From positions 124,001 to 188,000 of the forward strand of contig NC_083376.1 of NCBI RefSeq assembly GCF_029542785.1: DNA of 64,000 nt, in the 5' to 3' direction. Each line of letters starts with the position of its first letter. The stretch's first letter is position 1. This DNA comes from Malassezia japonica. Taxonomy: Eukaryota > Basidiomycota > Malasseziomycetes > Malasseziales > Malasseziaceae. Positions 6,259 to 63,802 of this stretch are shown piece by piece. A program made the translations under genes and the position numbers. The notes under the pieces were generated by a model. That model ran no database searches. It was given only the letters and a program-made list of their open reading frames with translations, and was not told the origin of the DNA.

Positions 6259-8554
6259 ATGACAAGAGCGCGGCGTTCGCGTTCGCCGGTTGATAGCGAA
6301 ACGGAGTCTACATATAATGGTCATGCCACAAGTAACGTAGTGGCGAGCACGGCAGCGGACAAGGCCGAGGCGCATGCGCCCCCGGAAGACCTCCTGAAGC
6401 ATGTGCGCCGGCGGCGGCGCATTGCGGCGGCGCTGAGCCGCGTCGCGCCCACGCTGCGGTACGTCGCATAGCTGACGCAGGGCGATCCTTCTTGCTGGGG
6501 CACTGGTCCTCCTGGCCTTGCTGGCGGTGCCCTCCTCGCCCTTTTCTCGGTCGGTGTACGTGGACGAAAACGCGCTGCAGCCCGGGCAGGAGCAGACGAC
6601 GTGGGACTGGCACGACGTGCACTATGCGGACAATATCTCAAGCGCGCTCGAGGAATATGCGCGTGCGAACGACACTGCCGGGCGCCTCGCGTACCTGCGC
6701 ACGGAGCTCGAAGGGATGGGCCTCGAGGTGCACGAGCAGCGCTACGTCTTTGCCGTGCCGAACGGCCCGCCGGTGAGTGGCACGAACCTATATGCGCGCT
6801 CGTACACGCCCCGCATCGACGGGCGCGAGGCTATGGTGCTCTCCGCGAGCTGGCTGAGCCGCTGGAAGGAGGCACACACGCCGCACGCCGGCCTTCCCTA
6901 TACGCCGCCCGGCAGCGCGCGTGCGGTGAATGTGCGCGGGGCCGCGAGTGTCCTCGCGCTCGCGCGGCGCCTCACGATGGTGCCCCACTGGAGCAAGGAC
7001 CTGATTGTCGTGTTTAGCGACGGATACCTCGACGGCATGCAAGCGTGGGCGACGTCGTACTTTGGCAAGCCGCAGGCTGGGCTCGTTGCGGACGAGGTGC
7101 GCGGCGCCGGCGCCCAGATCTGGAACGCGCTCGCGCTCGACTACCCCTCCGACTCCTACTCGTCGCTCTCCCTCTTGCACGAAGGGCGCGACGGGCAGCT
7201 GCCGAACCTCGACACGCTCAACACGGTCGTCGAGATCGTGACGCGGATGCAGTTCAAGGCGATGCTTGGCCTGCACGGCGCGACGTACGAGGACGTCGAG
7301 TACGACATTCCGCACCTCGATGCGCTTGTGGCTCGTGGCGTGCCGCGCGCGCCGCTCGAGTGGTTCGAGGCGGCGACGGACCGCGACGCGGTGCACGGCT
7401 TCCTCGCGGGGTGGCGTGCGCTCTCTGCGCAGTGGCGCCTGCAGCTTGCGGGCCACCCCAGCGGCGTGCACGGCGTTCTGCTCCCGTTCCACGTCGACGC
7501 ACTCACGCTCTTTGCCGAGCCTGCGCCGGGCCCCAGCGGATTCTACGAGATGGGCAAGGTGGTCGAGTCGACGCTGCGTGCGTTCTCGAACCTGCACGAG
7601 CGTCTGCACCACTCGCAGTTCTTCTACCTGCTCCTCTCGCCCCACCGCTTTGTGCAGATCGGCACCTACCTCTTTGTGCCGCTGCTCATCGGCGCCGTGC
7701 TCACGCTCACCGGCCTTGCGCTCTGGAACGCGCTCGGGCAGCGCCGCGACCGCCTGCGTGGCGTACTTGCGGAGCGCGTCGCGCCCAAGACGAGCGCGCT
7801 CCTCCTCGAGCGCCCGGCGTACGACGAACTCGCTCGCCGCATGGCCGGCGCGTCCCAGGCCGAGCGCAACATTGCGCTCGGCGCGTACGACGCGCTCGCC
7901 CGCCCCGTGTGGCCGACACTCGTGTGCATGGCTGCCGCGCATGCCGGCGGCCTCGCGTGCCTCGCGCTGACGGTGCGTGCGCCGCTCGACTGCACCGCAC
8001 ATGGCCTCAATTCGTGCACGACGCTGGGTCTCTTGGCCGCTCTCGCCGCGGCGCTTCCCCTGGCGACTGCGCTCGGCGTGCGGTGCGCCGGCCTGGATGC
8101 CGTGCCGCTCGCGATGTGCCTGCACGCGTTTGCGATGCTGCACGCCGGCATGGTCATTAGCGTCGTGAGCACGCTCAACTTTAGCCAGGCCACGACCATG
8201 GCGCTGCTCCTCGCCTTTGCGCTCTATCCCATGGTGCCGCCTTGGGGCATGCGCGCAAACGTGCCCATGAAGAAGGGCGCAGGCCGCGCCGCGCTCTACC
8301 TACTCAGGATGCTCGCATTTGTCGTCGTGAGCCCTGCGGTGCTGGCCGGGCTTGCGCAGTGGATTCCGCTCCTGGCGCCCGCCTCGTTCACGATGCAGTA
8401 CCTCGCCGCGCAGATCCCTGTCGCGATCGACCTTGCGGTATGGGACTACCACGTCCTGCGCACGTCGACGCTCCCCTTCTTCTTTGTAGGCTACCTCCCG
8501 GTGGTGCTCGAAGGCGCCACGGCCGCCGCGCTGTACGCCGTAGCCTCCACATAA
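6259..8554 (+). CDS. GAA1: GPI transamidase subunit GAA1
   Basis: ER membrane subunit of the complex that attaches GPI anchors to proteins. Exons are 6259-6458 and 6481-8554, split by a 22-base intron with branch GCTGAC; 757 residues result. The splice joins a basic cytosolic N-terminus to the first membrane helix (ILLAGALVLLALLAVP, about residues 69-85). The lumenal M28-peptidase-like domain has VYVDENALQPGQ, LIVVFSDGYLDGMQAW and the family motif DGQLPNLDTLNTV. Several hydrophobic segments fill about residues 460-755. The next gene, COQ3, starts only six bases after the stop. Confidence 0.93.
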
Positions 8555-8560
8555 TCGACG

Positions 8561-9610
8561 ATGATCGGCTGGGTGCGAATCGCAGCGGGGGCGCCGCGTG
8601 CGGCGGCGCGCGCGCTGCACACGAGCGCTGCGCGTGCGTCGTTCTCATCGATCGATCCTGCAGACATTGCGCACTTTAGCCGGCTCTCGGAGCACTGGTG
8701 GGACGAGGAGGGCGAGTTCAAGCCGCTGCACAAGATGAACCGCGTGCGCATCGAATTCATGCGCCAGAAGCTCGAGGAGATGCACGGCTGGGACGCGGCG
8801 ATGGCCGACGTGCTGGGAGAGGCGGCGCCTGCGCCACTGTCTCCTGCCTTTTTGCACGGGCGCACGATGCTCGACGTCGGCTGCGGCGGCGGTATCCTTG
8901 CCGAGAGCGCCGCGCGCCTCGGCGCGAGCGTGACTGGCGTCGACGCCTCGCCGGAGAACATCCAGGTGGCGTCGCTGCATGCCGCCGAGGACCCCGCGCT
9001 GTCGCTGCGTGCGGATGCGGCGGCCGTCCAGGACCGCTCGTTGGCCTATGTCCACGCTACTGCCGAGGCACTCCGCGACGAGGGGCGACAGTACGACCTC
9101 GTCACCGCGATGGAGGTCGTCGAGCATGTGAACCAGCCTGCGGAGTTTCTGCGGTGCCTTGCGGACCTCGTGCGGCCGGGCGGCGCACTGTTCATGTCGA
9201 CCATGTCGCGCACGGCCCTGTCGTACTTTTTGACCATCTTTCTGGCGGAGGACGTGCTACGTGTCGTCTCGCGCGGCACGCACCGCCACGCGCAGTACAT
9301 CAACCCAGAGGAGATGGTCGGCTTTTTCCAAGAGCTCGGCTGGATCCGGCCCGAGCGTGAGCGGCCGAGCGGCCGTCCGACGCTGGCGGACGGCGCGCCG
9401 GTCGCTCCGCTGCCGCTGCGCCTGCAGTACGAGACGCGGGGCACGATGTACATCCCCGTGCTGGAAAAATGGATCCTTGCCTCGCCGTCGGTCGCCGATG
9501 CGGCGGCGACTGCGCGGCCGGTAACGGGCGTGCTTCCGTCGGTGCTTGGAGGCACGCAGCGTGCGACCGAGCAGTGCAACTATTTCTTTTATGTGCGCCG
9601 GCCGATGTAG
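8561..9610 (+). CDS. COQ3: Mitochondrial ubiquinone biosynthesis O-methyltransferase COQ3
   Basis: SAM-dependent methyltransferase that performs both O-methylations of the coenzyme Q ring. It has 349 residues and no intron. An arginine/alanine-rich presequence (about 1-28, ARALHTSAARASF) suits mitochondrial import. The family signature HFSRLSEHWWDEEGEFKPLH follows, then SAM motif I LDVGCGGGILAESAARLGA near residue 105 and VTGVDASPENI, and later MEVVEHV and MSTMSRTALSYFLTI. There is almost no room for a promoter before it. Its last 22 bases overlap the convergent VPS36 coding region. Confidence 0.95.
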   Translation: MIGWVRIAAGAPRAAARALHTSAARASFSSIDPADIAHFSRLSEHWWDEEGEFKPLHKMNRVRIEFMRQKLEEMHGWDAAMADVLGEAAPAPLSPAFLHGRTMLDVGCGGGILAESAARLGASVTGVDASPENIQVASLHAAEDPALSLRADAAAVQDRSLAYVHATAEALRDEGRQYDLVTAMEVVEHVNQPAEFLRCLADLVRPGGALFMSTMSRTALSYFLTIFLAEDVLRVVSRGTHRHAQYINPEEMVGFFQELGWIRPERERPSGRPTLADGAPVAPLPLRLQYETRGTMYIPVLEKWILASPSVADAAATARPVTGVLPSVLGGTQRATEQCNYFFYVRRPM

Positions 9611-10985
9611 AGAAGCGTATTGCGGAACCAGCGCGTGCCGTGCGTCCCGCACTCGTCGCGCACCAGGTATGTACAGCGCTGCTCCATGCCTTCGAGCAGC
9701 TCATGTAGAAGAGGATACGGCAGGCCTTCGTGCGCCGCCAGCTCGAGTGTCGTGCAGCTCGACGCGTCGAGATACGCAAGGATCCGTGCGTCGAACACGG
9801 CGTCGTCGTAGTGGGGGGTATGCAGGACCGACAGGCCCGACGACAGCACGCGGAGCGCGATCGGGGGCTCGGCGACGTCTGGAAGGTGTGCAATCGCGGC
9901 GCGCATCACTTTCGGCGAGACGAGCGCTGGGTCAGAATGGAAACGTACCGGTGCCCCGTGCGCGGTTCCAAAAGCCCCACACCTCGTCGAGGGCGAGCAG
10001 CTTGCGCTTGGCCAAGAGACCATCGCGGGTTGCGTCTCCAAGCAGCAGGTGCGAGAGCTCGCGCGCGAGCTCGCGGTGGTACTCTGCCTCGCTCTGCACC
10101 ATATCCTGCGTCACGGCCGGCGCCGCGAGGCCGAGCTGTACGAGCGCCGAGTGGATCATGGAGTCGGCGCCGTCGTGCGACGTGCGTCCGTCCTGTGCGA
10201 GGAGGCGCTCGCGCCGCTCGAGCTGCGTGCGCAGCGAGGATGCGAGGTCGACCTGGGTAAGCGAGGCAACGTACCATGCTCCGGGCCTGGTGCATCAGCG
10301 CCTCGAGGTCCTGGAATGCGTCTGGCGCCGGCGCCGCGGCGTGAGTATCCTTGCTAATGACGCCGTCGATGCCTGCAGCCACGCGCGCCGCCTCCGTCTT
10401 CCACGCCTTGGCGAGGAGCGTCGCGCGCAGGTGTGCGTAGAACGGCTTGTCGCCGCCTTGGCGGAAGCTCAGCTTGACGGCCAGCGGCCCCGTCCGTGCT
10501 TTCGGGAGCGGCGTCTCGCACAGCTCGCAGCGCGGCAGCGTGGGGTGGTTGAGAAACGTGCAAGCCGCACACGCGACGCTCTCCTGCACGTCTTCACTCG
10601 CCCGCACGACGCCGCACAGCGCACAGCGCCCGTCGAGCGATGTGGTATTCTCAAACGCACACACGCGGCACGTCCACGCCCCCCCCTCTCGCCCGTCGCG
10701 CAAGAGCAGCGTGATCTTGGGGCTGCTCTTGAGAAAGCCCGCATAGTGCTCAGTCTGCTGCACGAGCGCCAGGCGCACGTATCTCGACTGGTCGAGCGGC
10801 CGTGCGTCGTCAACGTACGCGAGGCGGTGCGTCGTGAGCACGAGCGTGCCGCACGACATATCCGGCACCTTTTCGCTACCATCGTACATGCCGACGCCTC
10901 CCTGCCGCGCGACCAGCGCCTCGGTCGGCGCGAGGTGCGCCGCGACCTCGGCGCTCCCCACGCCCCAGCGCTCCCAGCGCTCCAT
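9589..10985 (-). CDS. VPS36: ESCRT-II subunit VPS36
   Basis: Endosomal sorting subunit that binds ubiquitin and phosphoinositides through its GLUE domain. Exons are 10985-10275, 10252-9949 and 9926-9589, separated by two 22-base introns (branches GCTTAC and TCTGAC); 450 residues result. The N-terminal GLUE domain (TLVLTTHRLAYVDD, YVRLALVQQTEHYAGFLKSS) contains two NZF zinc fingers, CRVCAFENTTSLDGRCALCG (about 102-122) and CAACTFLNHPTLPRCELC (about 136-154), as in budding yeast. The C-terminal winged-helix part includes LLLGDATRDGLLAKRKLL and ELAAHEGLPYPLLHELL. The final exon overlaps the COQ3 end. Confidence 0.93.
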
Positions 10986-18576: not shown

Positions 18577-20739
18577 ATGCAACAAGCGGCACCGCTCTCG
18601 CCAGAGGCGTACGCCGACGCGCTCCTGCAGAGCTATCTCTCGCCGGCGACAGACGACGCACCGGCGGTGTGGACGGCAAAGTACGCGGAAGAGGTCGCCA
18701 AGCGCCGGGAGAGCGCGCTTGAGAAGACGCTCTTGTACGACCGCCTCTTGGCCGAGGCCAACGTCGAGGGTACGTTGACGCATCTGACGCAGCCTCGCTC
18801 TTTCCCCCGTCTTCGCCGTCGGATACCTATGTGCTGCTTGTCGCGATTCTCACGGCCGCCGTGGCCGAGGACGAAAAGAGCGCGCTGCTCTACTACCTCT
18901 TTAAAGAGCACGCCGGCGAGGCCGACGGCGACGTCTTTGCCGAGCACGTCGCCCTCTCGCCGAGCAAGCGCGCAGAGATCGACGGGTACTGGGGCGTGGA
19001 CCACGCCTTGTTTGCGGTACGTCGTGTGGCTTACGCAGTCCGCTATCCCTTACTTGAAGGACGCACGCTTTCTGCCGATCGTCGCCGAGACACTCGGCGG
19101 CCAACACAAACACGCCGCGCTCCTCCTCGAGCTGTACGACGTGCAGGGATCGCTGCCTGCGACGTGCGGGACGCCGTCCGAGGCGACGCTGCACCAACTC
19201 GCCCTCCTCCTCGAGGCCCTGGCGCAGGTGCGCGGCCTCGGCACTGCATGGGTCGCCTGCCGCCAGTGGCTCGCCGCCCAGCCCAACGCACAGGCGCTGC
19301 ACAATGCCCTCTATGGCGTGCTGTTGCGCTACTGCTTTGCGCCGCCGCGGCCCGACGCGATTCGCGCGCTCCTCGCGCTGCCCCTCGATGCCGATGAGGA
19401 GGGCCGCGTGCAAAACTATGCTTTGACGCCGGGCAGCGCCGCGCCGAGCCACGCGGCAGTGGCCGTGGACACGCTCCTCCTCAAGCTCATCAACGAGGGT
19501 CGGTACGTCGACGCCATCCACCTCGACCGCCGCGCCGCACAGCTCGAACGCTCGCACGCATTCGGCAGCGACGGCAGCAGCCAGGCGGCGCGCCTGCGCC
19601 ACCGCCGCAAGGCGCTTGTCGACGGCGTCTGGTCGATCCTGCCGGCCGTGCAGCGCGACGCGCTTGTCGCGGATCTCGGGCCGGAGCCGATGGCGGAAGA
19701 GGCCCAGCCTGCTGCGCCCGAGCGGCCGCAGACGCCGCTGAGTGCGTCGCTGAGTGCGGCGCCGGCCAAGGCGTCGCCGGACGCGCGCCTCTTGTATACC
19801 GCCGTGCACCTTCCTTCGCTGGGCCAGAAGCGCGGCGCGACGCCGGCGCTGCGCGAGTCCGATGCGCCGCTGCGTAGCAGCAGTCCGTTTGCGGGCTGGA
19901 AGCGCGCCGCGCCGCGCGAGACGCAAAAGGAGGCGCCGCGCCCGCTCGAGCCGGGCTGGGGCGTGCCGATTCCTAAGATGGCGCAGGACGTGGCTATGGA
20001 CGAGGCGCGTGCCGTCGAAGAGGATATGGACGACGCACTTGACGAGGCCGAGGCGGTAAACGAGGACGAGCCGATGGCCGACGAGGCCGACGAGGCCGAC
20101 GAGGCCGATGCTGACGACGAGCCTGTGGACGACGAGCCTGTGGACGTCGATGAGCCTGCGGACGAGCCTGAGGACGAGCATGCGGACCCCTCGCCGTCGC
20201 CCGAAGTCCCGCGCCGCCGCCGTGGCTCACGCCGCGCGGCAAAGAAGGCAAACGAGGCGCTGCGCATGACGCTGCGCTCCGAGGACCCCCCCGTTCCCGG
20301 CGGCTTCCCGATGGAAGCGGCGCCGGCGCGGCGTACGCGGCGCACGTCGCGTGCGCCCGAAGAGGGTCTGACCGCATCTGCGTCCATGTACCCCACGGCC
20401 CAGTCGCCGGCCCCCCGCCTGCCACGCAGTGCGACGCAAGGCGACGTGGCGTACCCCCAAGCGTCGCTTGCGCGTCTCGAGGCGTTGCACGACCACCGCC
20501 CTATTGCGCGGCGCACGCGTGCGCAGACTGCCGAGCTCGAGTCGCACGGCTCGCAGGCGAGCGATGTGGGGGACCTGTCCGACTTTGCGCACGACGAGCC
20601 CGCGACGCCCTCGCGGCGGCGGCGGCGTGCGTCGCCCGTGGCAACCCCCCAGCGCGTCACGCGCTCGTCCCGCCGTTTGAAGGACGGCACGACGCCCGGC
20701 ACCCCCCGCTCGGTCCCCCGGCGGCGCGATGGAAAGTAG
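18577..20739 (+). CDS. ELYS-like domain protein, probable nuclear pore assembly factor
   Basis: Exons are 18577-18769, 18793-19016 and 19039-20739, with introns of 23 and 22 bases (branches TCTGAC and GCTTAC); 705 residues result. Residues about 20-330 are alpha-helical and resemble the ELYS domain of animal ELYS and small fungal pore proteins (LLVAILTAAVAEDEKSALLY, LLKLINEGRYVDAIHLDRR, VDGVWSILPAVQRDALVADL). The C-terminal half is disordered. It has an acidic repeat block near residues 485-550 (DEADEADEADADDEPVDDEP) followed by basic RRRRGSRR and R-T-R patches that could contact DNA or chromatin. A nuclear pore role is inferred from the domain. Confidence 0.6.
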   Translation: MQQAAPLSPEAYADALLQSYLSPATDDAPAVWTAKYAEEVAKRRESALEKTLLYDRLLAEANVEGTLTHLTQPRSFPRLRRRIPMCCLSRFSRPPWPRTKRARCSTTSLKSTPARPTATSLPSTSPSRRASAQRSTGTGAWTTPCLRYVVWLTQSAIPYLKDARFLPIVAETLGGQHKHAALLLELYDVQGSLPATCGTPSEATLHQLALLLEALAQVRGLGTAWVACRQWLAAQPNAQALHNALYGVLLRYCFAPPRPDAIRALLALPLDADEEGRVQNYALTPGSAAPSHAAVAVDTLLLKLINEGRYVDAIHLDRRAAQLERSHAFGSDGSSQAARLRHRRKALVDGVWSILPAVQRDALVADLGPEPMAEEAQPAAPERPQTPLSASLSAAPAKASPDARLLYTAVHLPSLGQKRGATPALRESDAPLRSSSPFAGWKRAAPRETQKEAPRPLEPGWGVPIPKMAQDVAMDEARAVEEDMDDALDEAEAVNEDEPMADEADEADEADADDEPVDDEPVDVDEPADEPEDEHADPSPSPEVPRRRRGSRRAAKKANEALRMTLRSEDPPVPGGFPMEAAPARRTRRTSRAPEEGLTASASMYPTAQSPAPRLPRSATQGDVAYPQASLARLEALHDHRPIARRTRAQTAELESHGSQASDVGDLSDFAHDEPATPSRRRRRASPVATPQRVTRSSRRLKDGTTPGTPRSVPRRRDGK

Positions 20740-22952: not shown

Positions 22953-23575
22953 ATGACCAAGGCGATTGTATTTCTCGCAGAGGGGACGGAGGAGATGGAA
23001 TTTAGCATCGCGTACGACGTGCTCGTGCGGGGTGGCGTAGACGTCAAGTCGGTGTACGTGCCCGCGGCGGGTGCCGCGGACGCCCCGCCGAACGGCCTCG
23101 TGAAGGCCTCGCGTGGCGTCCAGATTGGGCCCGACATGACCCTCACCCAGCTCGTGCAGGCGGGCGACGTCGGCTCGTACGATGCGCTGATTGTGCCGGG
23201 CGGCGTCGGTGGTGCACAGACCATCGGTAAGGACGAGACGGTGCTCAAGATGCTCAGCGACGCCTACCAGGGCAAGCGCCTCGTCGGCGCCATCTGCGCC
23301 GGATCGCTCGCGGCGCTCCATGCAAAGATCGGCCTCAAGGGCCCGATCACGAGCCACCCGTCGGTGGCCGACCAGCTCTCCAAGGGTGCGTACGAAAAAG
23401 AAAAACTAACATAGACTATGAGTACTCTGAGGACCACGTCGTGGTCACCGACCACCTCGTGACAAGCCGCGGACCGGGCACCTCGTTTGCCTTTGCGCTT
23501 ACGCTCCTCGAAAAGCTCGAGGGTGCCGAGGTGCGCAACAAGGTCGCTGCGCCCATGGTCCTCCAGCACCTATAG
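22953..23575 (+). CDS. DJ-1/PfpI family protein (PARK7-like)
   Basis: Members act as cysteine-dependent glyoxalase/deglycase or redox-stress proteins. Exons are 22953-23385 and 23415-23575, joined over a 29-base intron with branch CTAAC; 197 residues, typical for the short DJ-1 subgroup. The conserved glutamate is in AEGTEEMEF (about residue 15) and the nucleophilic cysteine lies in the elbow GAICAGSLAAL (about residue 115). PGGVGGAQTI and the C-terminal VTSRGPGTSFAFALTLLEKL also match the family. It resembles PARK7 more than the larger Hsp31 class. Confident in family, not in substrate. Confidence 0.9.
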
Positions 23576-36992: not shown

Positions 36993-38360
36993 CTACGAGG
37001 TCTGTGCGTCGCCACGTGGCGCACCGTGCAGCGCCGCGAGCTTCGCGAGGTGGCTCGGCGCGAGGTGCGCGGCGCGTACGAGCGCCGCGAGCGCCGCGCG
37101 TCCGTCGTGCTCAGCGGGGAGCATAGGAGTGGGGGCGGGGCGCAGCGCGAGGGCGACGTACGGCGCGCTATCGCGCTCAGCGAGCGTGCACGCGACGCCG
37201 TCGGGCAGCGGAAAGGCGCCGACTTGGGGGCCATTAGCATAGGACACATCGACGCGCGGCGTCGACGCAAGCGCGCTCCGCGCCTCGTCCGGCGTGCACG
37301 CGAGGTACGCGGCGACAGCGTCGAGAGGAAGCGTCGAGTAGATACGTGCGAGCGCCTCGACGAGCCGCTGGGGCTGCGCGGCGACGCACTGCTGCACGAG
37401 CCCGGTATTCGCATCCGCCGCAAACTGCTCGGCGTGTGCCGCAAGGAGTGTGTGCAGGTCGCGCGAGCCACTGCGCATGCGGCGGTAGTTGTGCGCGAGC
37501 GCGAGGTACGCGCCGGCCTGGCGCAGGTACTGCGACCGGACATTGACACTCGTGTGCTTAAGGAGCGCCTCGCCCTCGACATTGTGGCCGGCGAGCAGGC
37601 GCACGAGGATCAGCTTCTTGAACGCATCGAGCTGGATATGGCTCACACTTTCGGACGGGAGCGCAATGCACTGCGTGAGAAGGGCGGGCGACGTACCGTC
37701 TGCCACACGTCCTCTGCTTTTTCGTACGCTTGCTGCAGCGTGTATACGAGGCCGGCATAGTAGAGGTACGCGAGGATATCAAGGTAGCGGCCGACCCTTG
37801 CAAAGTCGGTCGCGCCCAGGTCCGTGCGCTGCACGAGCGCGGCGCTTTTCTCGTCCTTGGCGAGGAGGTATTGCTGCGTGAGGCGCGCGACGTACATAGA
37901 GGAGCGGCGCATGCACACTCGAGAGCCCGCGGTACGGCGCAAGGCTCTCGTACACGCCCTCGAGCCACCGCGTGGCGTATGTCGGCTGCATTAGACGCGG
38001 AACCTACCGAGACGAGCCGCCCTTTGTCCGACATGGCGTCGGCCCATTGCGCCACTGCATTAGCGAGACGACGTACCCAGCAGCGGCACGTAGGGAATCG
38101 CACCAATGCTTTGCATCACGTCCTCGTGTCCCGCCTCGAGCGCCTGCACCTCGGCGGCGCTCTGCGCGGCACGCAGCTGGGCGGCGCTGCGTCAGTCTCG
38201 GCACCTACAGGCACATCCATTTTGCGAGCGGCCGCGCGCTCTTCCACGGCGGGTCCATGCGGTCGCCAAGCAGCGCCTCGTCCTGCTCCAGAAACGCATA
38301 CAGCTCCGGCACACACGACGGGTCGGCCGTCGCACGGTCCGCAGCCTCTGCCCACGCCAT
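36993..38360 (-). CDS. CSN3: COP9 signalosome subunit 3 (CSN3), six exons
   Basis: PCI-domain subunit of the COP9 signalosome, which removes NEDD8 from cullins. Exons are 38360-38209, 38186-38077, 38054-38008, 37985-37896, 37873-37697 and 37670-36993. Four introns are 22 bases and the last is 26; 417 residues result, matching the roughly 420 usual for CSN3. No other splice choice I tried keeps an open frame. The family core is clear: AYLYYAGLVYTLQQAYEKAE, SVSHIQLDAFKKLILVRLLA, VRSQYLRQAGAYLALAHNY and NTGLVQQCVAA, as in animal CSN3. The first exon (AWAEAADRATADPSCVPELY) is less conserved. Exon 3 is only 47 bases. Its ATG overlaps a possible FBH1 ATG on the other strand. Confidence 0.86.
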
Positions 38361-38394: not shown

Positions 38395-41065
38395 ATGGGA
38401 GCGCGGCGCCGCGTAGCGGCGCAGCGGCGGACGCTGCTCGAGTGCATGCCGCGAGGCGCCGTGTTTCACACGCTGAGCTACCTGTCGTTTTCAGATATCG
38501 TGCGCTTGCTGTGCGCCGACAAGCGCCTGCGGCCGTTTGCAAACGCGCGGCACTTTGCGCCATGGCGCAAGCGCTTCCTGAAGCTCGCCGCGGCCGAGGC
38601 GGCGTACGAGGCGTGCGTGCGCGCGGGTGAGGAGAGCGGCGAGACAGAGGACGCGTTTGTCGCTGCGTACGGCGAGGCGCTCTCGGCGCTCCAGCTCGCG
38701 CGCGCGCCGCTGCAGATGCACGAGATGCTGCACGCGGTCGTCGCGCAGGACTTTGACGCGGACGCGGCGCAGATGTTTCTCGTGCCGTGGATCATGGGCC
38801 GCTGCGAGGCCGGGAGTGCGTTTGCGCGCTTCGCAGCGCCGGTCGCTGTCGAAATGCTGTGCTTTGCGCGCGTCTTTTTTGTCGTGCTGCGCCTGTCGCG
38901 CCACTTTAGCAGCGGCCCGTCGCACCGCCCGTACCACCAGATGGTGCATGTGCTCGACGCGGATGCGGAGAGCGCGCTGCACCGCTTCTTTTCGCCGCGC
39001 CTCGCGCCGACGCCGCCCGACGCGCTCACGAGCGAGCAGGCGGCGTTTGTTGCGCACGACGTGCGTCCTACGGATCTCGTGTGTGTCCAGGCCTATGCCG
39101 GCGTACGTATTCCTGCTGACCCAGACCGGAAAAACGCGCTCGCTGTACGCGTACGCACAGCGGCGGCCGTCGTCGCGCTTTCTCTACATCACCTTTAACG
39201 CAGCGACCGCGCGTGCGGCGCGCGCCGCGTTTCCGCCGAATGTCGAGTGCCGCACGATGCACGCGGTCGCGCTGCGGCACGTCCAGCTGCCTGACGGCCA
39301 GGCGCTCGGGACGCTGCGGCCGCGCGACGTGGTCAAGCTCCTCCGGGGGCAGCTTCCCGAAGGGCGGCGCATCAAGGACGATGCGCGCCCCGAAAAGCTC
39401 GCTGCGCCGTCGGTCGCGACGTACATCCTGCGCACGCTCGACCGCTTCATGCAGTCGGCGGATCCCCAGATCCGTGCCGACCGTCATGTGCCGAAACACA
39501 TGGCGCAGTGCACGGACCTCCGTGCGAACGACGTGGCGCACGCCGCAGCGGCGCTCTGGGACATGATCTGTGCAGGGCGCACCGAATGCCCGCACGACGC
39601 GTACGTCAAGCTCTTGCATCTGCAAGGAAAGAGCCATTTCGGGGACTATACCGCGCTGCTCCTCGACGAGGCGCAGGACTTGTCCGCGTGCCAGACCGCG
39701 ATTCTGCTCCGTGCGCGGGGCACGTCGGCGGTCGTCGTCGTGGGCGACGTGCACCAAAAGATTTACGGGTTCCGCGGCGGGAGTGCGGCCGCGTTCCACG
39801 CGCGGACCTATCCCCCGACGGCGCACTTTCAGCTCACGCAGAGCTTCCGCTTCGGGCCGCATGTCGCGCGGCTCGCGAGCCAGGTTCTGTCGCTCAAAGC
39901 GCCGCCGCCGTGGGCGCCGCACACGCCCGCGCCCCGCCTGCACGGCACGGGGCCCGACGCGGTGCTGCTCGGGACGTCTGTGCATGGGCCCCATACCCGC
40001 GTGTACCGCACGAATGCGCTGCTTGCGCACGACGCGCTGCGCCTCGCTGCGAGCGGCACGCCGCGCCTATTTTTGAAAACGAGCCAGGCGATGCAGCCTG
40101 CCGCGCTCGCCGCGCTGCTGCGCGACGCATATACCTTGTACCACGGCGAGGTCCCCCCGCCGTCCTCGTCGCTGCGCGAGTTTGCCGCGTGGAAAGAGCT
40201 CGTAGAGCACGTCGAGGCGGACGACGGCGGGGGCGACAGTAAGCTCGCGCTTGTCGTGTCGCTCGCGCCGCTGCTGAGTGCGCCGACGTTTCTCGAGCAC
40301 GTCGCACAGCTCGAGCACTGCTGCTGCGCTGCGCCGGAGGACGCGTCGATCGTCCTCACGACCGTGCACCAGGCCAAGGGCCTCGAGTGGGACACGGTCG
40401 TGCTTGCGGACGACTTTTCGCCGACGCACGACGGCTGTGCGCCCGCGCTGCGCCCGCGCGTGCATCTGCTCGGCGCGTGCGACGAGGTGAACCACATGTA
40501 CGTCGCGCTCACGCGTGCGCGGCGGGTACTGTGCATCCCCCCCGGCGTCTATGCGTGGGTCGCGGCACGAGAAGGCATGTACCGCTTCCGCTACGCCGAG
40601 AAAAGCGCCAAGGCGCAGTGTCCGCTGTGCCGCACGCAGCGCGTGGCGCTCGTACAGCTGTGCATGCCGTATTCCGAGTCGGCGAGCCTCGCCGATGTCC
40701 CCGTGTCAACGGCCGCACACACCTACGACGCGTCGCTCTTTTCTATAGGGTGCCTCGCGTGCGTGCGTGCGCGCCTCGGCCTCGATGCGGACCTCGAGGA
40801 CTTTGTGCGCTGGGTCGACGGGTGCGGCGTGAGCACGACGACCGGCCGCCTGACGCCCGCGGCCGTTGCGCGCACCACACGCAAGCACGCGCCGTCCGCG
40901 CCCCGTGCGGTGCGCGCCCCCGCTTTTTCGACGTGCACTGATCGGCGTGATTTGTATGCCGCGCTGCTCGAAGAGATCAAGAGCAGCGTGCGGCGGTGGC
41001 GCGAGATGCGGCACGCATGGGTTGCCGAGACTACGGGCCCCGAGCCTATGGAGACAGACGAATAG
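38395..41065 (+). CDS. FBH1: F-box DNA helicase FBH1
   Basis: UvrD-family 3'-5' helicase with an F-box, acting in an SCF ubiquitin ligase to remove Rad51 from DNA and limit recombination. Exons 38395-39102 and 39125-41065 are joined over a 22-base intron that splits the Walker A motif (AYAG then TGKTRSL). The F-box lies near residues 18-55 (PRGAVFHTLSYLSFSDIVRL). Helicase motifs: FLYITFNAATARAA, LLLDEAQDLSACQ (about 414), VVVGDVHQKIYGFRGG, TTVHQAKGLEWDTVVLADDF and ALTRARRVLC. Late cysteine pairs (CPLCRTQR, SIGCLACVRA) may bind zinc. From 38395 the protein has 882 residues; the in-frame ATG at 38359 would add 12. Confidence 0.9.
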
Positions 41066-41803: not shown

Positions 41804-42838
41804 ATGCGGGTAGCCACGGTGCAGTACGCCCCGCAGTTTGCGGAGCCGAATGCGAATGCGGCGCATGTGCGCGCGCAGCTCAAGGAGTAAGTGCCTGACC
41901 TGACGCAGGACCGCGCCCAAGTCGCTCGACATGCTCGTCCTCCCCGAAATGGCCCTGACGGGTAGGTGCCCGTGCGCTGACGCAGGCTATCTCTATTCGT
42001 CGTACGAGGAGATCGAGCCGCTGCTCGAGTCGCCGTACCGCGGCGAGGGTGCGACGTACGAGCTCGCGACGTCGCTCGCAAAGGAGCTGGAGTGCTATGT
42101 CGTCGCGGGCTTCCCGGAGCGCGCCTCGGACGAGGCGCTCGCCGAGTTTCCCGGCGCGCACGACGCACGCACGCCACGCGCCGAGGCGGAGACAATCGCG
42201 CCGTCGTACCTGCCGAGCATGCGGGGCAAGGCGTTCAACTCGGCACTGCTCGTCGACCCGAGCGGAGCGCTGGTCCGCGTGTTCCGCAAGCACTTTTTGT
42301 ACGAGGCCGACACGCCGTGGGCCGACGAGGGGCAGGGGTTTACCTACGTGGACCTGCCCATCGGCCGCGTGTGCGTCGCGATCTGCATGGACTTGAACCG
42401 TGCGTGGATGTGCTAACGCAGCCTACCTGCTCTCGTCCGACTTTGAGCGCTACGAGCTGACGCAGTACTGCGACAAGAACCAAATCGACCTGCTCGTCGT
42501 CCCGATGAACTGGCTCCTTCCGGACGAGGAGATCGACGCGTACAAGGCGGGCGACGCAAACGACCCTAGCATTCCCACCATCAACTACTGGGTCGCACGC
42601 TGCATCCCGTTGTGGGTGCCGGGGATGGAGCAGCCCGGCCACGAGGGGCACAAGACGCTCTTTGTCGCGTGCAACCGCACGGGCACCGAGAAGGGTACGT
42701 GCGTCGGCTTATACAGAAACCACCTTTGCGGGCTCCTCGAGCGTCATTGCGTTCACCGCAGGCGACCAGGCGACACTGCTCGGCGCCGCGGGCAACCGCA
42801 AGGACGCCGTGCTCACCGTCGAGCTCAGCAAGGAGTAG
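41804..42838 (+). CDS. NTA1: Protein N-terminal amidase NTA1, five exons
   Basis: Nitrilase-fold enzyme that deamidates N-terminal Asn/Gln, feeding proteins into the Arg/N-degron pathway. Exons are 41804-41886, 41909-41961, 41986-42399, 42422-42694 and 42717-42838; introns are 22, 24, 22 and 22 bases. The 314 residues show the Glu-Lys-Cys triad: glutamate in LVLPEMALTGYLYSSYEEIE, lysine in RVFRKHFLYEADTPW, and cysteine in VAICMDLNPYLLSSDFE, completed only when intron 3 is removed. VVPMNWLL and KTLFVACNRTGTE are also typical. The short 53-base exon 2 carries the catalytic glutamate. Yeast Nta1 is about 450 residues, so this is a compact form. Confidence 0.92.
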
Positions 42839-42991: not shown

Positions 42992-45900
42992 CTACACATC
43001 ACTACTGTCGGCCCACTCGATCTCGTCGTCGCCCACGACAAACGAGTCGTTCGAGTACTCGTCGTCGGAGCGGATGTCCGCCTCAGACGACGGACGCAGC
43101 GCCGCACGGCGCGCAAGCAGCTCCTGCAGCCGGTCGCGGCCTCGGAAGGGCGTCGGCGCACGCTGCGACAGCATCGACTGCAGGTACACGGCCTCTTGGT
43201 TGTACCCGGCCTGCTGCGTCGCGGGAAAGTCGCCCACCGCCGCACGGTCCTCGTCGTTCTCGTCGGAAGAATCAGGGCCGGACTCGTCTTCGTCCGACTC
43301 GCCGTGCTCGTCGCTGTCGGTCTCGCGCTCAGCCTCCTCGTCCACAAGCATGTTGCGTGCACCCCGCGCCACGCGCCGCTTTTTGCGGGGGGCAGCGCGG
43401 GCGGGAGGCGACGAGGGGACATGCAGCGACGACGAGCCGCCACTTGCCAAGACCGACGCGTGCGGGGGGGTATCGGGTATAGGGGACGACGGCCGCCCGG
43501 GCGCCAGCGGCGCATCCGAGTCTTGCGACAGGAAGAAAAGGGGCGGCACGTCCACATCGGCCTCGGTCTCGGGCACAGCGGCTCGCTCGATCTCCTCGGC
43601 ACCGTCCTGGCTAAGCTCGGCAAGCTCAGCGACAAGAGGGTGGGGCGCATAGCGCGCAAAGTACGGCGACACGGTACGGTCCGCCGCAGGACTCGGCGAG
43701 GGCGTCGCGTGCGAACGCCGCGCGCCGAGCGTGCGCTTGGCAGGAGGCGCAGGGCTCTTGAACGCGGCCGACATGCTCGCCGAGGTGGCGGCAGGCGCAC
43801 GCGTGGACGTGGGCGTGGGGTCCTTACGGGGCGCGGGATCCTTGCGAGGCGCTCCAGACGTCGCGCCAGACACAGTGGACCGAGGCGCGGCGCGGGATGC
43901 GATCGGCTCTCGAGCGGACACATTCGCAGTCGCATGCGCAGCAGGCGCCTTGGCAGCGCCCCGCGACGCAGTTGGCGCGCGCACCGACGGACTCGAGGGC
44001 CGTGCCGACTCACACGGTCCACTCGACGGCTCGCTCTCGCGACTCGGCGCATCCTCGCCGCATGGCTCGTCTCGGCTCGACGGCGGCCACGTATACGCGC
44101 TGCTCGACGAGACGCGCAGCCCGCTCGCGATTTCAGCGTCGTCCGAGTCGTCCGACAAGTTGGCCGTCGCGCTCGAGCGCGACGCACTCGATGGTGTGCG
44201 CACCGGCCCCCCGCCTTCGCGGTGCTCGTCGTGCCTGCGCAGCTCGCTTGCGCTGCAGAATGCGAGCAGGTTCCCCTTTTGCTTCGGCTTGGGCGACGCC
44301 GCCTTCTTGGCGCGGCGCTTGGGCGGCGCCTTGAGCGCGCCCGGCTCAAACTTTGGCTGGGCGACCTCGCACATGACCGGCTCGGGCTTGATGACCTCTG
44401 GGACGAGGCGGTCGACGTCCGTGTACAGCTCGATCGTGTTTGCGGAGCGCACGAGGCGCTGTACGTTCTTGTACGAGTCTTTCGAGTGCTGCCAATTGTG
44501 TTCTTCGCGCCCTTCGGTCATGAGCACGACGATGCGTCCATCGCGCATGCGGCCTGTGCGGCCGACACGCTGCAGCGCACGGACCGAGTCGCGCACCGCC
44601 TCGTAGCATACGATGAGGTCGACTTCGCCGATATCGAGTCCCTCTTCGCCGATCGACGTCGCGACAAGCACTTGGAACGTGCCGTTTTGAAAGTCGGCGA
44701 GGATCTGCTCCTGCACCTTTTGTGTAAAGCCGCGGTTGCCCTTTTTGTCGGTCGCCTGGCCGATAAACGGCGTGGCGCGGATGCCAGCCGCCTGCAGCAA
44801 CGTCACGATCTCGGTGACCACCTCGCGGTACGAGCAAAAGACCATGGCGCGCGTCTTTTCGCCTTCGGCCTGAAAGTGCTCTAGGAGCACTTTTTGCAGT
44901 GCATGCATCTTGGGGTGCGTGAGCAGTGCGTCGTCGCCCTGCACGCCTTCGAGCGCCATGACCAGCGCCTGGAACTTGGCGTTCTGCGGCGAGAAGATCT
45001 GGTCCTTTTTCGTACCGCTCTTGCTCGGCGTGATGATCGCCTGGACGCGGTCGCAAAAGACGCGCACCGACTCCTCGGCGAGGTACTGCAGCGCAAGTGC
45101 CATGCTCGAGAGCTGTGCAATATTTCCGCGCAGAAACGGCTTCTGTGCGAGGATCGCGCGGCCGTTGGCGTCGTTGCCGCACGCTCGCACGCCAAACGAG
45201 CGCAGGGTGCTGGGGTCTGCATTGCGCAAGAGGCCGTGCTTGAGCAGGGGCTCGTGGTACACGTGCATCAGCGCGGTCCATGCATGGCGGAGCTCTTCGA
45301 GCGGCCGCCCGAGCGGGACGCGGACAAGCTGCTCATGCTGTGTGAGTCGCGCGGCGTACCTTGGTATGGAGATAGGGCTGGATATCGAGCGCGTCCTCTG
45401 TCCGGATCTCGATGCGGTTGATATGCAGGTTGTTCACGACCTCTTGGACCTTGTCCGCGTGGCTCCCCGGCGTCGCGGTCAGGGCGAGGATGCGAAAGTG
45501 CGGGTTGTGGTACATCAGGCGGCGGATCACCTTGCAATACGCATAGTTGCCGGTAGCACGGTGCGCCTCGTCGACGACGACACACGCGACGTCTTTGGGA
45601 TCGCACGTCGTCGATAGCAGATCGTTCTCAAACGTCTGCGGCGTCATGTAAAAGATGCGCTTCGCCTGCCACTCGTCGTCGCGCAGCGAGCGGCGCGTGC
45701 TGCCCGTGAGCTCGATCGCGGTGTCCCACGGCAGGCCGCAGATGCTGTGGCACGCCTGCTGCTGCTGCGCCACGAGCGGGCGCGTCGGCGCGACAAAGAT
45801 GACTGGGTCAGTTTCACGACGCACTCTTTCCTTGAGGAAACCAGCGAAACATGTTGAGGATGACCACCGCCGCGATAAACGTCTTGCCGAGACCGGTCGG

Positions 45901-59483: not shown

Positions 59484-59538
59484 ATCAAGATGAGTCTTAT
59501 CTTCCCAGACACGCCATGGCTGTATCGACGTAATGAGA

Positions 59539-59910: not shown

Positions 59911-60165
59911 GCGTTTCCAAATATAGAAAACGTTTCTTGTCACCTAGGAACAGACCGGGGGTGACAAGGATCGGCACGATGTTCGGACTTTTCGGATATC
60001 CCAGCACGCAGCTCGGCTCGAAATACTCGTTTGGTGCTCGTGTGTGTCCATCTAAAGAGGCATCTTTTGGGCGCACGTATAGAACGTACCATGCCGTCTA
60101 TAAGGTCGGAGAACCCTATCCTATTCCCTCCGACAAAACACATACACTCGTATAACATAAAACTC

Positions 60166-60234
60166 ATGAATTCCGGTGTAGCTACTTGTGCAAGCCGTTA
60201 CGTAGGGTCCATGTCATGGACAACTAGAGAGCGT
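60166..60234 (-). repeat. Duplicated 3' flank of secreted peptide copy 2
   Basis: Shares CATGAATTCC, GTAGCTACTTGT, AGCCGTTACGTAGGGTCCAT and TCATGGAC with the flank of copy 1; the inverted copy 3 flank has matching AGCCGTTACGTAGGGT and GAATTCC. Confidence 0.65.
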
Positions 60235-60563
60235 TTAACCGATGCAGATCTCCTTGAGGAGGTCAAGGAGGTCACCAACGAGAGGAATGGCCTTGCCAAT
60301 CTGGTCCTCGGTAGCATCAAGGCCCTCGAGTAGAGGCTTGACTTCGGGCACGATCTCCTCGAGAACGTTGTCAAGGCTGAGTTAGTACAACCACGAAAAA
60401 AAAATACGTACACGCCAAGGAGACCACCACCGCAGGGCTTGCTGCTGTTCGAGCGGCGCTGGAGGCCGGCGTCAGCGACAACAGGGGCCTGCGCGGCAGG
60501 CGAAGCCATGGCCACCGAGGCGGCGACAACGGCAGTAGCGGCAAAGATACGAGTGAACTGCAT
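60235..60563 (-). CDS. Small secreted peptide family, copy 2
   Basis: 97-residue precursor nearly identical to copy 1. Exon 1 is 60563-60412 (same signal peptide and LQRR-SNSSKPCGGGLLG start of the mature part). The intron is 60377-60411 (35 bases, donor GTACGT instead of GTGCGT, same nine-T tract and ACTAAC branch). Exon 2 is 60376-60235, ending DLLDLLKEICIG. Differences from copy 1 are few: for example KPLLEGLD replaces KPLLKGLD and the last valine is isoleucine. The first-exon 5' leader differs (ACCACCGCTCCATC before the ATG). The pair looks like a recent tandem duplication that includes the 3' flank. Confidence 0.8.
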
Positions 60564-60630
60564 GATGGAGCGGTGGTTGCTTGAAGAGCTTGTCAAGGAG
60601 CTTGAGGAGCTTGGGGCTTCAACTAGGGTG

Positions 60631-60641
60631 CTTTTATGCTC
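60631..60641 (-). promoter_or_regulatory. TATA-like box of peptide copy 2
   Basis: GAGCATAAAAG on the minus strand, 68 bases before the ATG; same 11-mer as the other two copies. Confidence 0.6.
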
Positions 60642-61244
60642 TTCCCACAGAGCTTATCATCTGTATGTCCTATCGTGACAGCAATATCGTGACGCGACGC
60701 TTCCGTCTGTATTGTTTATCCGAACGTATCCCAGCATCGTTGCATTGCGCCTCACGTTGCATGCTGTCAGGGCACTATTACCGCATCGGTATTTTTTCAC
60801 AGCTTATCGGCGAAAATGGATCGCCAGTGAGATTATGCCGCTCGGACTCCGCCCGAACGGACGTGCGCGAGCTCCTGGGGAGGAACACGCTCCGAGTCAC
60901 CGCTTACAGCGCTACCTAATTTGGCAGAGCTGCATCGAAATGGCGTCAACAACACATATCCTGTCAGATAACACTTTCTCATCTCTATCATCTGAGTGCT
61001 GCGTAGATTTTCCGAATTCGTCCGTAGTCACTAGCGAGGCCATGGCCGGAATCGGTTCCGATAAGGATGCGCCGGTCCCAACGCATGTGGAGGCCCGATC
61101 GGCGTTATGCTCGTGGAGCCCCTCACCTAATCTCGCCGAATAACAAGCAGCGATGTCAGCCAAGTTTCTTATCGGGGATAAAACGGCTCAATAAAGTACA
61201 GGAGTAGAACTTGAAGCATGAGCGCCAAAGTCACGGCGAAACCA

Positions 61245-61260
61245 TCTGGTCCAGTGTAGC
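61245..61260 (+). promoter_or_regulatory. Shared upstream motif at peptide copy 3
   Basis: TCTGGTCCAGTGTAGC, the counterpart of the motif at 59539-59554, about 60 bases before the TATA-like box. Confidence 0.45.
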
Positions 61261-61321
61261 CTCCTGAGACAAGGCGGCGTCGCAATGAGCGGCACCTGTA
61301 CATGATAAGCACCATTTTGAA

Positions 61322-61332
61322 GAGCATAAAAG
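61322..61332 (+). promoter_or_regulatory. TATA-like box of peptide copy 3
   Basis: GAGCATAAAAG, 76 bases before the ATG; identical to those of copies 1 and 2. Confidence 0.6.
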
Positions 61333-61407
61333 CAGAGAAGTAAGAGCCCCGACATTCTCATCAAGCTCCTTCAAGCTCTCAGCTCCTCAAGAAGCCTCCT
61401 CTCAAAC

Positions 61408-61737
61408 ATGCAGTTCACTCGTATCTTTGCCGCTACTGCCGTTGTCGCCGCCTCGGTGGCCATGGCCTCGCCTGCCGCGCAGCCTCCTGTTGTCGCTGAC
61501 GCCGGCCTCCAGCGCCGCTCGAGCAGCAGCAAAAGCTCTTGCGGCGACGGTCTCCTTGGCGAGTACGTATTTCCTCGTGGTCAAACTAACCCTAGGCTCG
61601 ACAAGACGCTCGAGAGCATCCTCCCCGAGCTGAAGCCCCTGCTGGAAGCTGTTGACGCTACTGAGACCGAGCTCGGCAAGGCCATCCCCCTTGTTGGTGA
61701 CCTCCTTGACCTCCTCAAGGCGATCTGCATCGGTTAA
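61408..61737 (+). CDS. Small secreted peptide family, copy 3 (inverted and diverged)
   Basis: 98-residue precursor. Exon 1 (61408-61562) has the same signal peptide, LQRR site and a serine-rich start of the mature region (SSSSKSSCGDGLLGE). Exon 2 (61596-61737) encodes LDKTLESILPELKPLLEAVD and ends DLLDLLKAICIG. The intron (61563-61595) is 33 bases with branch CTAAC. Because 33 is a multiple of three and the intron has no in-frame stop, retention would insert 11 residues and still give a full protein, unlike copies 1 and 2 with 35 bases. Both cysteines are kept. Sequence divergence suggests this is the older duplicate. Confidence 0.8.
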   Translation: MQFTRIFAATAVVAASVAMASPAAQPPVVADAGLQRRSSSSKSSCGDGLLGEYVFPRGQTNPRLDKTLESILPELKPLLEAVDATETELGKAIPLVGDLLDLLKAICIG

Positions 61738-62100: not shown

Positions 62101-62742
62101 TTACTCCAATAGCCCATCCAAGACTTGGATAATGCGCCGCTGCATCGCAATCGCATCCGTATCTTTAGTTTCAAAGAAGGAGGGGATCTCCAGCTAGGTG
62201 AGCAGTGCGTCGTACCTCTTCGAGTCTTTGCTGTTGGTCGTGCTGCATGGTATCCCAGCGCCGGAGCGCTTCCCAGACCCATCGGGCATGAGTTGCTTGT
62301 AGCCGCGCGCCGCTGTGTAAGCCAATTCACGTACTCGGCACCCCGTAGTTTTTCGCCGTCGCTTCCTATCAGCTCGGCACGCTCGGTCGCGAGTCTCTGC
62401 TCCAGCGCGTATTGGGCCGCTTTCATCTGGGTGAGACCTTGTACCTACTCTCTTCAGCTCAGCAATAAACACTGGATCTCTTGCCTTTTCCGTGACGATC
62501 GGCAGCGCATCGGCGAACCGCATTGTGCGTAAGTCCTTGGCCGGGGCCTTGGGTTCCGACTTTTCCTCGAAAACAGGTTTCCACGGGTCGTACGTCTCGT
62601 TCTGTTGTAAAAACGCAGGGCGCTTTGGATTGCTGGCCCATGGCCGCTGTGTTGCCGACGGCTCAGGGCGTGGCTGCTCCGGCACTTCGTCCTGCTCCCG
62701 GAGCTTGGCCAGCAGCGCCCGTACACCACCTGGGTCGTCCAT
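62101..62742 (-). CDS. Unrecognised four-exon gene, coiled-coil protein of 191 aa
   Basis: I cannot name this protein. Exons are 62742-62449, 62426-62335, 62312-62216 and 62193-62101, with three introns of exactly 22 bases (branches TCTCAC, GCTTAC, GCTCAC). Each junction keeps the only open frame, and phases 0, 2 and 0 agree. The N-terminus (MDDPGGVRALLAKLREQDEV) is followed by a proline-rich linker with YDPWKPVFE. The C-terminal two thirds is helical and charged (LRTMRFADALPIVTEKARDP, VFIAELKRMKAAQYALEQRL, ARWVWEALRRWDTMQHDQQQ) and ends MQRRIIQVLDGLLE. It looks like a conserved small coiled-coil fungal protein. It is divergent from TAN1 over 44 bases. Confidence 0.7.
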
Positions 62743-62743
62743 T

Positions 62744-62756
62744 GTGGAGCCTCCAC
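62744..62756. promoter_or_regulatory. GTGGAGCCTCCAC near-palindrome between two start codons
   Basis: An inverted pair of GTGGAG halves around a single central base in the 44-base divergent gap. It is a two-sided version of the TGTGGAGG element seen in other short promoters here. Confidence 0.4.
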
Positions 62757-62786
62757 TTGGCCTAATTCGAAGAAAGTGCCCCTTTT

Positions 62787-63802
62787 ATGCCATCCACACA
62801 AGGCGGACGCCCCGCGAAGCGCCGGCGGCAAGAAGGTGGTGAGCACCAGCGCCACCGCACGCGACTGGCCACGGTCCTCGGCACGCCCAATGTAAGTGGC
62901 GTTTTCATGTCCTGTGCGCGCGGGAAGGAGCGGAAAGCCGCGATGGAGCTGGTCGATGTGATGGACGAGGTACGTCCTGATGCTTACGTAGCACTGCCGC
63001 GCGCTGTACGGCACCGGCGATGCGCCCGTTGTGGACGAAGATGATATGGATGCGCTGAGGAATGGAGCGCCGCCCGCCGCGGCGCCTCCTCCTCCGGCCG
63101 CCGACGACATTGAAGCGCAGATCCGCGGCGAGTTGGCTCAGCTGCGTGCTCCCAAGACGCGTTCGACGCGCCTCGTGTCCCTCGAGACGGACACCGAGTG
63201 CCTGTGTTTTATCAAGTGTGCGCCGCCCGTGGATGCAGGGCGAGTCATCCGGCGCGTGTTGGAAGACGTTGAAAAGACGGGCGAGTCGCGTTCTCGGTTC
63301 GTCCAGCGCCTCGCGCCTGTCAACACGCTCTGCCGCGCCGAGACCGAGGCGATCCGGACGGCTGCGACGCATGTCCTGCCGCGTTTCTTTACGTCGGAGC
63401 GCCCGAGGACGGTGCGTCTCGTTTCTAACGCAGTATCGTATTGAGCCCCGTATCCGCTCGCACACTTCGCTGTCGCGCGACACGCTCATCCCCCTGATTG
63501 CCTCGTGCATCCCCGACAATGCGGCGCACCGCGTGGACCTCGCCAATGCCGAGATTGTGATTCTCGTCGAGGTGCTCAAGAATGTGTGTGGAATCGGTGC
63601 GATGGAAGACTACGAGCGGCTCGGCAAGCTCAATGTCCAGACGCTCGCGCAGCGTGCCCAGAACCTCGCACCGTCGCGTGTCGGCGACGGCAAGGCGAAG
63701 AAAGACGAGGACGCGGCGGAGCAGGAAAAGGTCACCGAGACTCTTACGCACGACGTGCCTCGGGCGGCGGATGCCGAGGTGGAGAGCGCACAAGACCCCT
63801 GA
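62787..63802 (+). CDS. TAN1: tRNA acetyltransferase partner TAN1 (THUMP domain)
   Basis: THUMP-domain adaptor needed with the Kre33/NAT10 acetylase for N4-acetylcytidine in tRNA-Ser and tRNA-Leu. Exons are 62787-62969, 62992-63411 and 63434-63802 with two 22-base introns (branches GCTTAC, TCTAAC); 323 residues. The N-terminal GVFMSCARGKERKAAMELVD block, then LVSLETDTECLCFIKC, SRFVQRLAPVNTLCRAETEA and the THUMP segment (DLANAEIVILVEVLKNVCGI, YERLGKLNVQTLAQRAQN) match TAN1/THUMPD1. The second intron interrupts the THUMP domain right before YRIEPRIRSHTSL. The C-terminal tail is charged and poorly conserved. Confidence 0.88.

Follow-up and report, generated by a model that had tools for sequence, protein, structure and literature searches.

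A predominant class of 22-nucleotide introns with a fixed layout in the yeast Malassezia japonica

Introduction

Uniform, ultra-short introns are already known from several eukaryotic lineages, and very short introns are known from the yeast genus Malassezia itself. We describe here the introns of Malassezia japonica, starting from a 64,000-nucleotide (nt) stretch of its genome (NC_083376.1, positions 124,001 to 188,000 of the forward strand; hereafter the window, in whose coordinates positions are given unless a numbered contig is named) in which a preliminary description had listed 20 spliceosomal introns of exactly 22 nt. Our comparisons with published systems draw on excerpts of the papers cited. 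In the mikrocytids M. mackini and P. canceri, 217 of 224 introns measure 16 nt and 7 measure 17 nt, with a conserved sequence (PMC10245619). They resemble the introns described here in their exceptionally narrow length range and conserved sequence, but they are 16-17 nt long, number 224 and belong to a parasite with 17-19 identified spliceosomal proteins, whereas M. japonica has 22-nt introns, more than 3,000 motif copies and the second-step splicing factors that we looked for. The introns of the heterotrich ciliates Stentor and Blepharisma, mostly 15-16 nt (PMC9505925, PMC9942806, PMC10245619), are similarly tiny but shorter; for Stentor, Slu7 and Prp18 are listed as N/A, whereas both were found here, and U2AF1 is common to the two. 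Chlorarachniophyte nucleomorph introns have a comparably narrow range, given as 18-21 nt (PMC10245619) or 18-20 nt (PMC5014332), but are shorter and reside in the relic nucleus of a plastid. Paramecium also has an ultra-short class (PMC5014332), but it is a ciliate with another mode (25 nt), and a constraint on lengths divisible by three is established only there. Finally, the type B introns of Trichomonas go down to 23 nt, with a branch motif no more than about 12 nt away from the 3' end, but there are only 24 of them and the authors call them the more variable class (PMC12316389).

The published introns of M. arunalokei (median 40 nt, mean 68.1), M. globosa (mean 76-79) and M. restricta (median 30 nt, mean 37.2; PMC9241646) are very short like ours, but their reported medians and means exceed 22 nt. 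As for very short exons, functional microexons were stated in 2024 to be previously undescribed in filamentous fungi (PMC11121469).

Results

All 20 segments listed in the preliminary description span 22 nt, run from GT to AG on a single strand, as expected of spliceosomal introns on the sense strand, and carry CTNAY at positions 14-18, which agrees with the proposal of a branch-like adenine at position 17. The fixed layout that had been proposed, GTRNGT-N7-CTNAY-NN-AG, is matched by 17 of the 20 and occurs 17 times in the whole window; the remaining three depart from it in their donors (GTGCCA at 2312, GTACGC at 45338 and GTACGA at 62194). The length of exactly 22 nt stands for 19 of the 20. 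The exception is 2312-2333, for which 2312-2337 (26 nt) is the better reading: the longer version yields an open protein of 60 amino acids, and the 22-nt version has no end inside the interval. For 45338-45359, a gene finder using splice signals picked a 31-nt variant, and the 22-nt version aligns without gaps to FANCM.

This layout is abundant throughout the 8.43-Mb genome (nine contigs; the window has a GC content of 66.6%). It occurs 3,144 times (1,598 forward, 1,546 reverse), against 15 occurrences (12 forward, 3 reverse) of the same pattern reversed, which served as control. We attach practically no weight to the idea that the segments are inserted coding sequence or errors of sequencing or assembly, since one layout recurs 3,144 times and taking it out recovers conserved motifs to the exact base (see below).

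The length distribution was studied in a 264-kb set made up of the window and contig 1:300,001-500,000. When the spacer in the motif was varied, there were no copies at 20 and 21 nt, 107 at 22 nt and 10, 2, 1 and 5 at 23 to 26 nt. A motif-free gene finder, whose inputs are coding bias and GT/AG alone and for which all lengths from 15 to 150 nt are equally likely, returned 22 nt as the commonest length at each of four penalties (36, 31, 29 and 28 introns), whereas three decoy dinucleotide pairs gave 2-6 introns of that length. Among the 29 such introns found at one penalty, 27 have the full layout, and 28 have it when any base is accepted at the sixth donor position. The signal-based finder, which learns its splice signals and leaves length free but is not independent of the motif, called 165 introns, with 89 at 22 nt, 15 at 23 nt, one at 21 nt and none at 15-20 nt; at two other penalties the 22-nt share was 95/196 and 82/143. 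A lax-penalty run was over-called (530 introns, 97 of them 22 nt), and the stricter run was used instead. Of its catalogued introns of up to 60 nt (n=134), 89 have 22 nt, 44 are longer and one is shorter.

The 107 motif copies also respect the strand of the genes. Relative to the motif-free gene models, 55 lie on the same strand, none on the opposite strand and 52 outside; with introns switched off in the models the counts are 39, 0 and 68, and with the non-independent signal-based models 98, 0 and 9. The phases of the 22-nt introns are spread (33, 31 and 25; n=89), the exon bases flanking the 107 copies hold little information, and no space is left for a pyrimidine tract between the branch site and the AG. 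Among the 33 high-scoring introns whose length is neither 22 nor 23 nt, six have a length divisible by three; as the gene finder under-calls such lengths, we do not claim that they are depleted. As had been pointed out, 22 leaves a remainder of one on division by three and a retained intron shifts the frame; in the 89 cases a stop would follow inside the intron in 28, within 100 nt in 51 and only later in 38.

Spliced proteins were compared with Pfam domains, solved structures and Malassezia orthologs. Removing the short introns opens the reading frame in all ten gene models that were rebuilt. The unspliced frame was translated for eight of them and stops early in seven; it is open in the ELYS-like gene because its two introns sum to 45 nt, and there the spliced protein matches Pfam ELYS (8.1e-21), whereas no Pfam family was matched by the unspliced frame. 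Of the 20 junctions, 14 fall inside such an alignment (VPS36 2, ELYS 1, CSN3 4, FBH1 1, NTA1 3, MPH1 2, TAN1 1) and 12 do so cleanly, the weak ones being 38055-38076 and 42695-42716 (Table 1). The signal-based finder recovered 14 of the 20 segments exactly. In the uncharacterised gene at the end of the window, removal of three introns gives an open frame of 191 amino acids, with no Pfam domain above its cut-off.

The most exacting case is a Rieske-DUF455 gene on the minus strand of contig 1 (403,157-403,232), in which three 22-nt introns surround exons of 3 and 7 nt. Taking out all three introns and keeping both exons yields VVVCPWHQYDF; skipping the 3-nt exon yields VVVWWHQYDF; keeping all three introns leaves the frame open but destroys the CPWH motif; and the protein is cut short when a single intron is kept or when both exons are skipped. 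The fully spliced product reaches 23.2 bits for Pfam Rieske (cut-off 20.3), which is not reported for either of the two open alternatives. The residues C, P, W and H are invariant across a 10-row Rieske alignment, consisting of this protein and nine relatives hand-picked from 120 listed. As the gene model starts within the Rieske domain, part of its 5' end is missing. Similarly, Wss1 has an 18-nt exon with a 22-nt intron on either side; this exon supplies the residues MLHELA, which belong to the HELAH site, and it aligns without gaps to Wss1p. A 14-nt exon between two 22-nt introns was also seen in a methyltransferase-like gene (contig 1:313,080-313,137) that was joined with a DEAD-box helicase gene in the gene finder's model.

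These microexons are handled differently in public gene models. The best named matches are M. furfur for the Rieske-DUF455 protein, M. brasiliensis and M. psittaci for Wss1, and M. brasiliensis (the sole named one of two matches) for CSN3. The annotated M. furfur Rieske protein carries VVVWWHQYDF, that of M. nana has a peptide fitting read-through of the first intron, and Malassezia sp. CBS 17886 and one further relative keep CPWH intact (entries P0005 and P0026, and also P0027). The six residues MLHELA are missing from the annotated Wss1 of M. caprae and Malassezia sp. CBS 17886 and are present in the entries of M. brasiliensis, M. psittaci, M. cuniculi, M. yamatoensis and M. furfur. Such missing or interrupted motifs are probably annotation errors. 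The annotated proteins with apparent microexon skips or kept 21-24-nt introns are P0003, P0020, P0126, P0134, P0131, P0125 and P0128.

Peptides inserted in the relatives' proteins offer a view of their introns, although an annotated protein reveals a kept intron without a frame break only at lengths divisible by three. Using codon degeneracy, we asked whether such peptides can encode GTRNGT-N(5-12)-CTNAY-N(2-3)-AG. All 13 chosen by eye (12 distinct, several at one site in near relatives) can do so at 21-24 nt, three of them (four when duplicates are given rows of their own) allowing a second placement 1-4 bases longer, as against 378 of 20,000 random 13-residue windows; the 13 were chosen for being insertions, and their agreement is therefore supportive and no blind test. 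This result bears on a simpler view, namely that we are looking at the usual Malassezia intron, known in substance, its 22-nt peak masked by the minimum-length settings of annotation. Very short introns have indeed been described for the genus (PMC7426719), by which the earlier statement on their rarity among fungi has to be qualified, and the relatives' peptides fit introns of 21-24 nt. However, the published medians and means are longer, and excerpts from the Malassezia literature, with the M. sympodialis proteogenomics paper outside their scope, contain no 22-nt peak, donor-branch edge or 3-nt exon. On balance this view has a real chance of being right, if somewhat below even.

The relatives also bear on a possible origin of the 22-nt introns as copies of a recently spread intron-generating element (an introner), hence their equal length. 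At the 11 free positions, nearest-neighbour identity is 8.26 as against 7.93 in column shuffles (standard deviation 0.08), and 37 copies, rather than the 25.9 of the shuffles, share at least 9 of 11. Nevertheless, no two of the 107 copies are identical and the seven free bases are low in information; moreover, the inferred length at one site differs between relatives (e.g., 26 nt here, 22 or 21 nt there). In CSN3, for instance, a peptide found in a metagenomic relative, whose identity is 94% across 54% of the protein, fits a 22-nt intron at the 37671..37696 site. We consider a recent introner highly improbable.

The shape of the distribution around 22 nt is most easily seen in a grid of the two distances, donor to branch and branch adenine (A) to last G, drawn up for the 264-kb set. 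The cell with a seven-base spacer and an A-to-G distance of five holds 107 copies, its neighbours at the same spacer hold two (A-to-G four) and seven (A-to-G six), and cells below spacer seven hold at most one each. In the whole genome, the GTACGT donor with spacers of 0-6 occurs 11 times, against 9 in the control. The contention that longer introns lengthen the donor-branch spacer only fails in part, the 3' side varying too: among 15 catalogued 23-nt introns the A lies five bases before the last G in nine, six in five and four in one. Likewise, of a spliceosome tuned to one length what survives is the dominant 22-nt class; the pattern is rather a hard lower edge on the donor-branch distance with a steep tail above it. 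This tail could also suggest that the spliceosome of the lineage measures and prefers a fixed donor-branch distance, 22 nt being an optimum and longer introns being spliced less well. The drop is steep (107, 10 and 2 at 22, 23 and 24 nt), and in nucleomorphs introns of 21-27 nt are said to splice less well than those of 18-20 nt (PMC5014332). On the other hand, the genes that carry 22-nt introns also have longer predicted ones, and a length histogram is unable to tell an optimum from a minimum. We regard a fixed optimum as unlikely, roughly one chance in a handful or slightly better.

The splicing machinery was represented in our searches by Prp8, METTL16-like, Prp18, Slu7, U2AF1, UPF1 and the U1, U2 and U6 RNAs. 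Prp8, Prp18, Slu7, U2AF1 (60% identity over 4-185 of 187) and UPF1 were all matched in the genome, and a METTL16-like gene was matched through Pfam Methyltransf_10, a family that also matches bacteria. There is one match each for U2 and U6, with canonical GUAGUA and ACAGAGA, respectively, and the branch motif CTNAY of the 20 segments can pair with the U2 GUAGUA. At donor position +4, 79% of the 107 motif copies have C, a base that pairs with neither canonical U1 nor U6 at that position. A loss of U2AF1, as might be expected where there is no pyrimidine tract, is ruled out by its match. A reduced spliceosome of the mikrocytid or microsporidian type is not what we found: Prp8, METTL16-like, Prp18, Slu7 and U2AF1, the only factors sought in this respect, are present. 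The Prp18 gene (contig 4:773,657-773,987) matches in two pieces and contains several short intron-like motifs, one with a T-rich spacer.

Table 1. Introns and intron candidates of the window, with the support for each
Feature	Position	Strand	Support
26-nt intron, small gene	2246..2271	-	gene-finder model, rebuilt gene
26-nt intron, small gene	2312..2337	-	protein open only with 26 nt; no Pfam family
22-nt intron, GAA1	6459..6480	+	motif; removal opens gene; Pfam Gaa1 is downstream of junction
22-nt intron, VPS36	9927..9948	-	junction residue 338.3, gap-free with VPS36 structure
22-nt intron, VPS36	10253..10274	-	junction residue 237, gap-free with VPS36 structure
23-nt intron, ELYS-like	18770..18792	+	within Pfam ELYS 52-268 of spliced protein
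22-nt intron, ELYS-like	19017..19038	+	within Pfam ELYS 52-268 of spliced protein
29-nt intron candidate	23386..23414	+	gene finders only
26-nt intron, CSN3	37671..37696	-	rebuilt model; relative's peptide fits 22-nt version
22-nt intron, CSN3	37874..37895	-	junction residue 135, within Pfam COP9_hel_rpt, gap-free with M. brasiliensis ortholog
22-nt intron, CSN3	37986..38007	-	junction residue 105, gap-free with M. brasiliensis ortholog
22-nt intron, CSN3	38055..38076	-	junction residue 89.3, at two-residue ortholog gap; basis is motif and open frame
22-nt intron, CSN3	38187..38208	-	junction residue 52.7, gap-free with M. brasiliensis ortholog
22-nt intron, FBH1-like helicase	39103..39124	+	within Pfam UvrD-helicase 196-442; cuts AGTGKT, presumably Walker A, between G and T
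22-nt intron, NTA1	41887..41908	+	within Pfam CN_hydrolase 2-181
24-nt intron, NTA1	41962..41985	+	within CN_hydrolase; gap-free with Nta1p
22-nt intron, NTA1	42400..42421	+	junction residue 183.3, gap-free with Nta1p
22-nt intron, NTA1	42695..42716	+	junction residue 274.3; aligned piece alone not significant
22-nt intron, MPH1/FANCM-like	45338..45359	-	junction residue 450, gap-free with FANCM
22-nt intron, MPH1/FANCM-like	45803..45824	-	junction residue 302.3, within Pfam DEAD, gap-free with FANCM
22-nt intron, uncharacterised gene	62194..62215	-	absent from gene-finder calls; one of three introns of gene
22-nt intron, same uncharacterised gene	62313..62334	-	rebuilt open frame
22-nt intron, same uncharacterised gene	62427..62448	-	rebuilt open frame
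22-nt intron, TAN1-like (THUMP)	62970..62991	+	removal opens frame; junction residue 9, outside domain
22-nt intron, TAN1-like (THUMP)	63412..63433	+	junction residue 149, within Pfam THUMP 126-204

Two low-GC stretches were seen in passing. At 59031-61737 the window encodes three related small proteins that look secreted (MQFTRIFAATAVVAASVAMASPAAQ...), two on the minus strand and one on the plus strand, for which the lax gene-finder run gave intron candidates of 35, 35 and 33 nt. On contig 1, a short trough of about 20% GC at approximately 488,750-489,300 is centromere-like when set against an excerpt of the Malassezia centromere paper (PMC7025860). Its place near 489 kb on this 2.11-Mb contig, counted from either end, coincides with none of the nine centromere positions given there for M. 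slooffiae CBS7956.

Discussion

As far as sequence can show, the 22-nt segments are introns with one layout, a length peak and a lower edge; most probably they are ordinary U2-type spliceosomal introns of a Malassezia yeast, shortened to the shortest length that its spliceosome can use. Judged from the sequences, the minimal unit would be a GTRNGT donor (mostly GTACGT), seven free bases, CTNAY with its A at position 17, two bases and AG. The limit would bear mainly on the distance from donor to branch, the 3' side tolerating one base less or more. Since some exons measure only 3 to 18 nt, recognition would have to act across the intron, i.e., by intron definition. A 22-nt intron that is kept would shift the frame and may expose the messenger RNA to nonsense-mediated decay. 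A pile-up at the edge of an empty range would be the expected outcome of deletion pressure against a functional minimum, the model put forward for the mikrocytids (PMC10245619).

Several observations weigh against such a minimum, or at least against the simplest form of it. Within the 264-kb set there are two 21-nt introns with the A four bases before the last G, and a further one of this kind lies in the METTL16-like gene, where we take the segment to be an intron from its resemblance to human METTL16. Thus 22 nt is not the absolute minimum of total length; as far as the sequences go, the hard part is the donor-branch distance. Even there, 21-nt introns with a spacer of six bases fit peptides seen in M. 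furfur and other relatives. Seven bases are therefore not the minimum for the genus as a whole, and where the edge lies may depend on the lineage and not on geometry. The machinery is also less altered than might have been expected. A change in U6 matching the C at donor +4 is ruled out by the canonical ACAGAGA. Yeast work suggests that Slu7 and Prp18 may be dispensable for introns of this kind, and the expected loss of one or the other is ruled out by the presence of both. The U1 small nuclear RNA was not found in the genome by Rfam U1 or by one 5'-end pattern, its gene being either divergent or missed. Lastly, the coding model of the motif-free finder was trained on the same 264 kb to which it was applied.

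One might also imagine, quite tentatively and with the odds against it, that Malassezia spliceosomes measure the distance between donor G and branch A with a ruler of roughly 16 nt, which shifts by single bases between species while the second-step factors are kept. Its settings would be A at 17 in M. japonica and perhaps A at 16 in M. furfur and other relatives, for some of their introns. Such a ruler could let exons of 3 and 7 nt be spliced by pure intron definition, and this yeast would then be a tractable system in which to study how geometry limits splicing.

At a practical level, some public Malassezia gene models seem to drop microexons or keep introns, at the cost of conserved residues in Rieske and Wss1-type protease proteins. 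If our interpretation is correct, a fungus would join the ciliates, nucleomorphs and mikrocytids as an organism that splices at the length limit, and in a yeast where the spliceosome factors sought, U1 excepted, are present, what sets this minimum would become testable.

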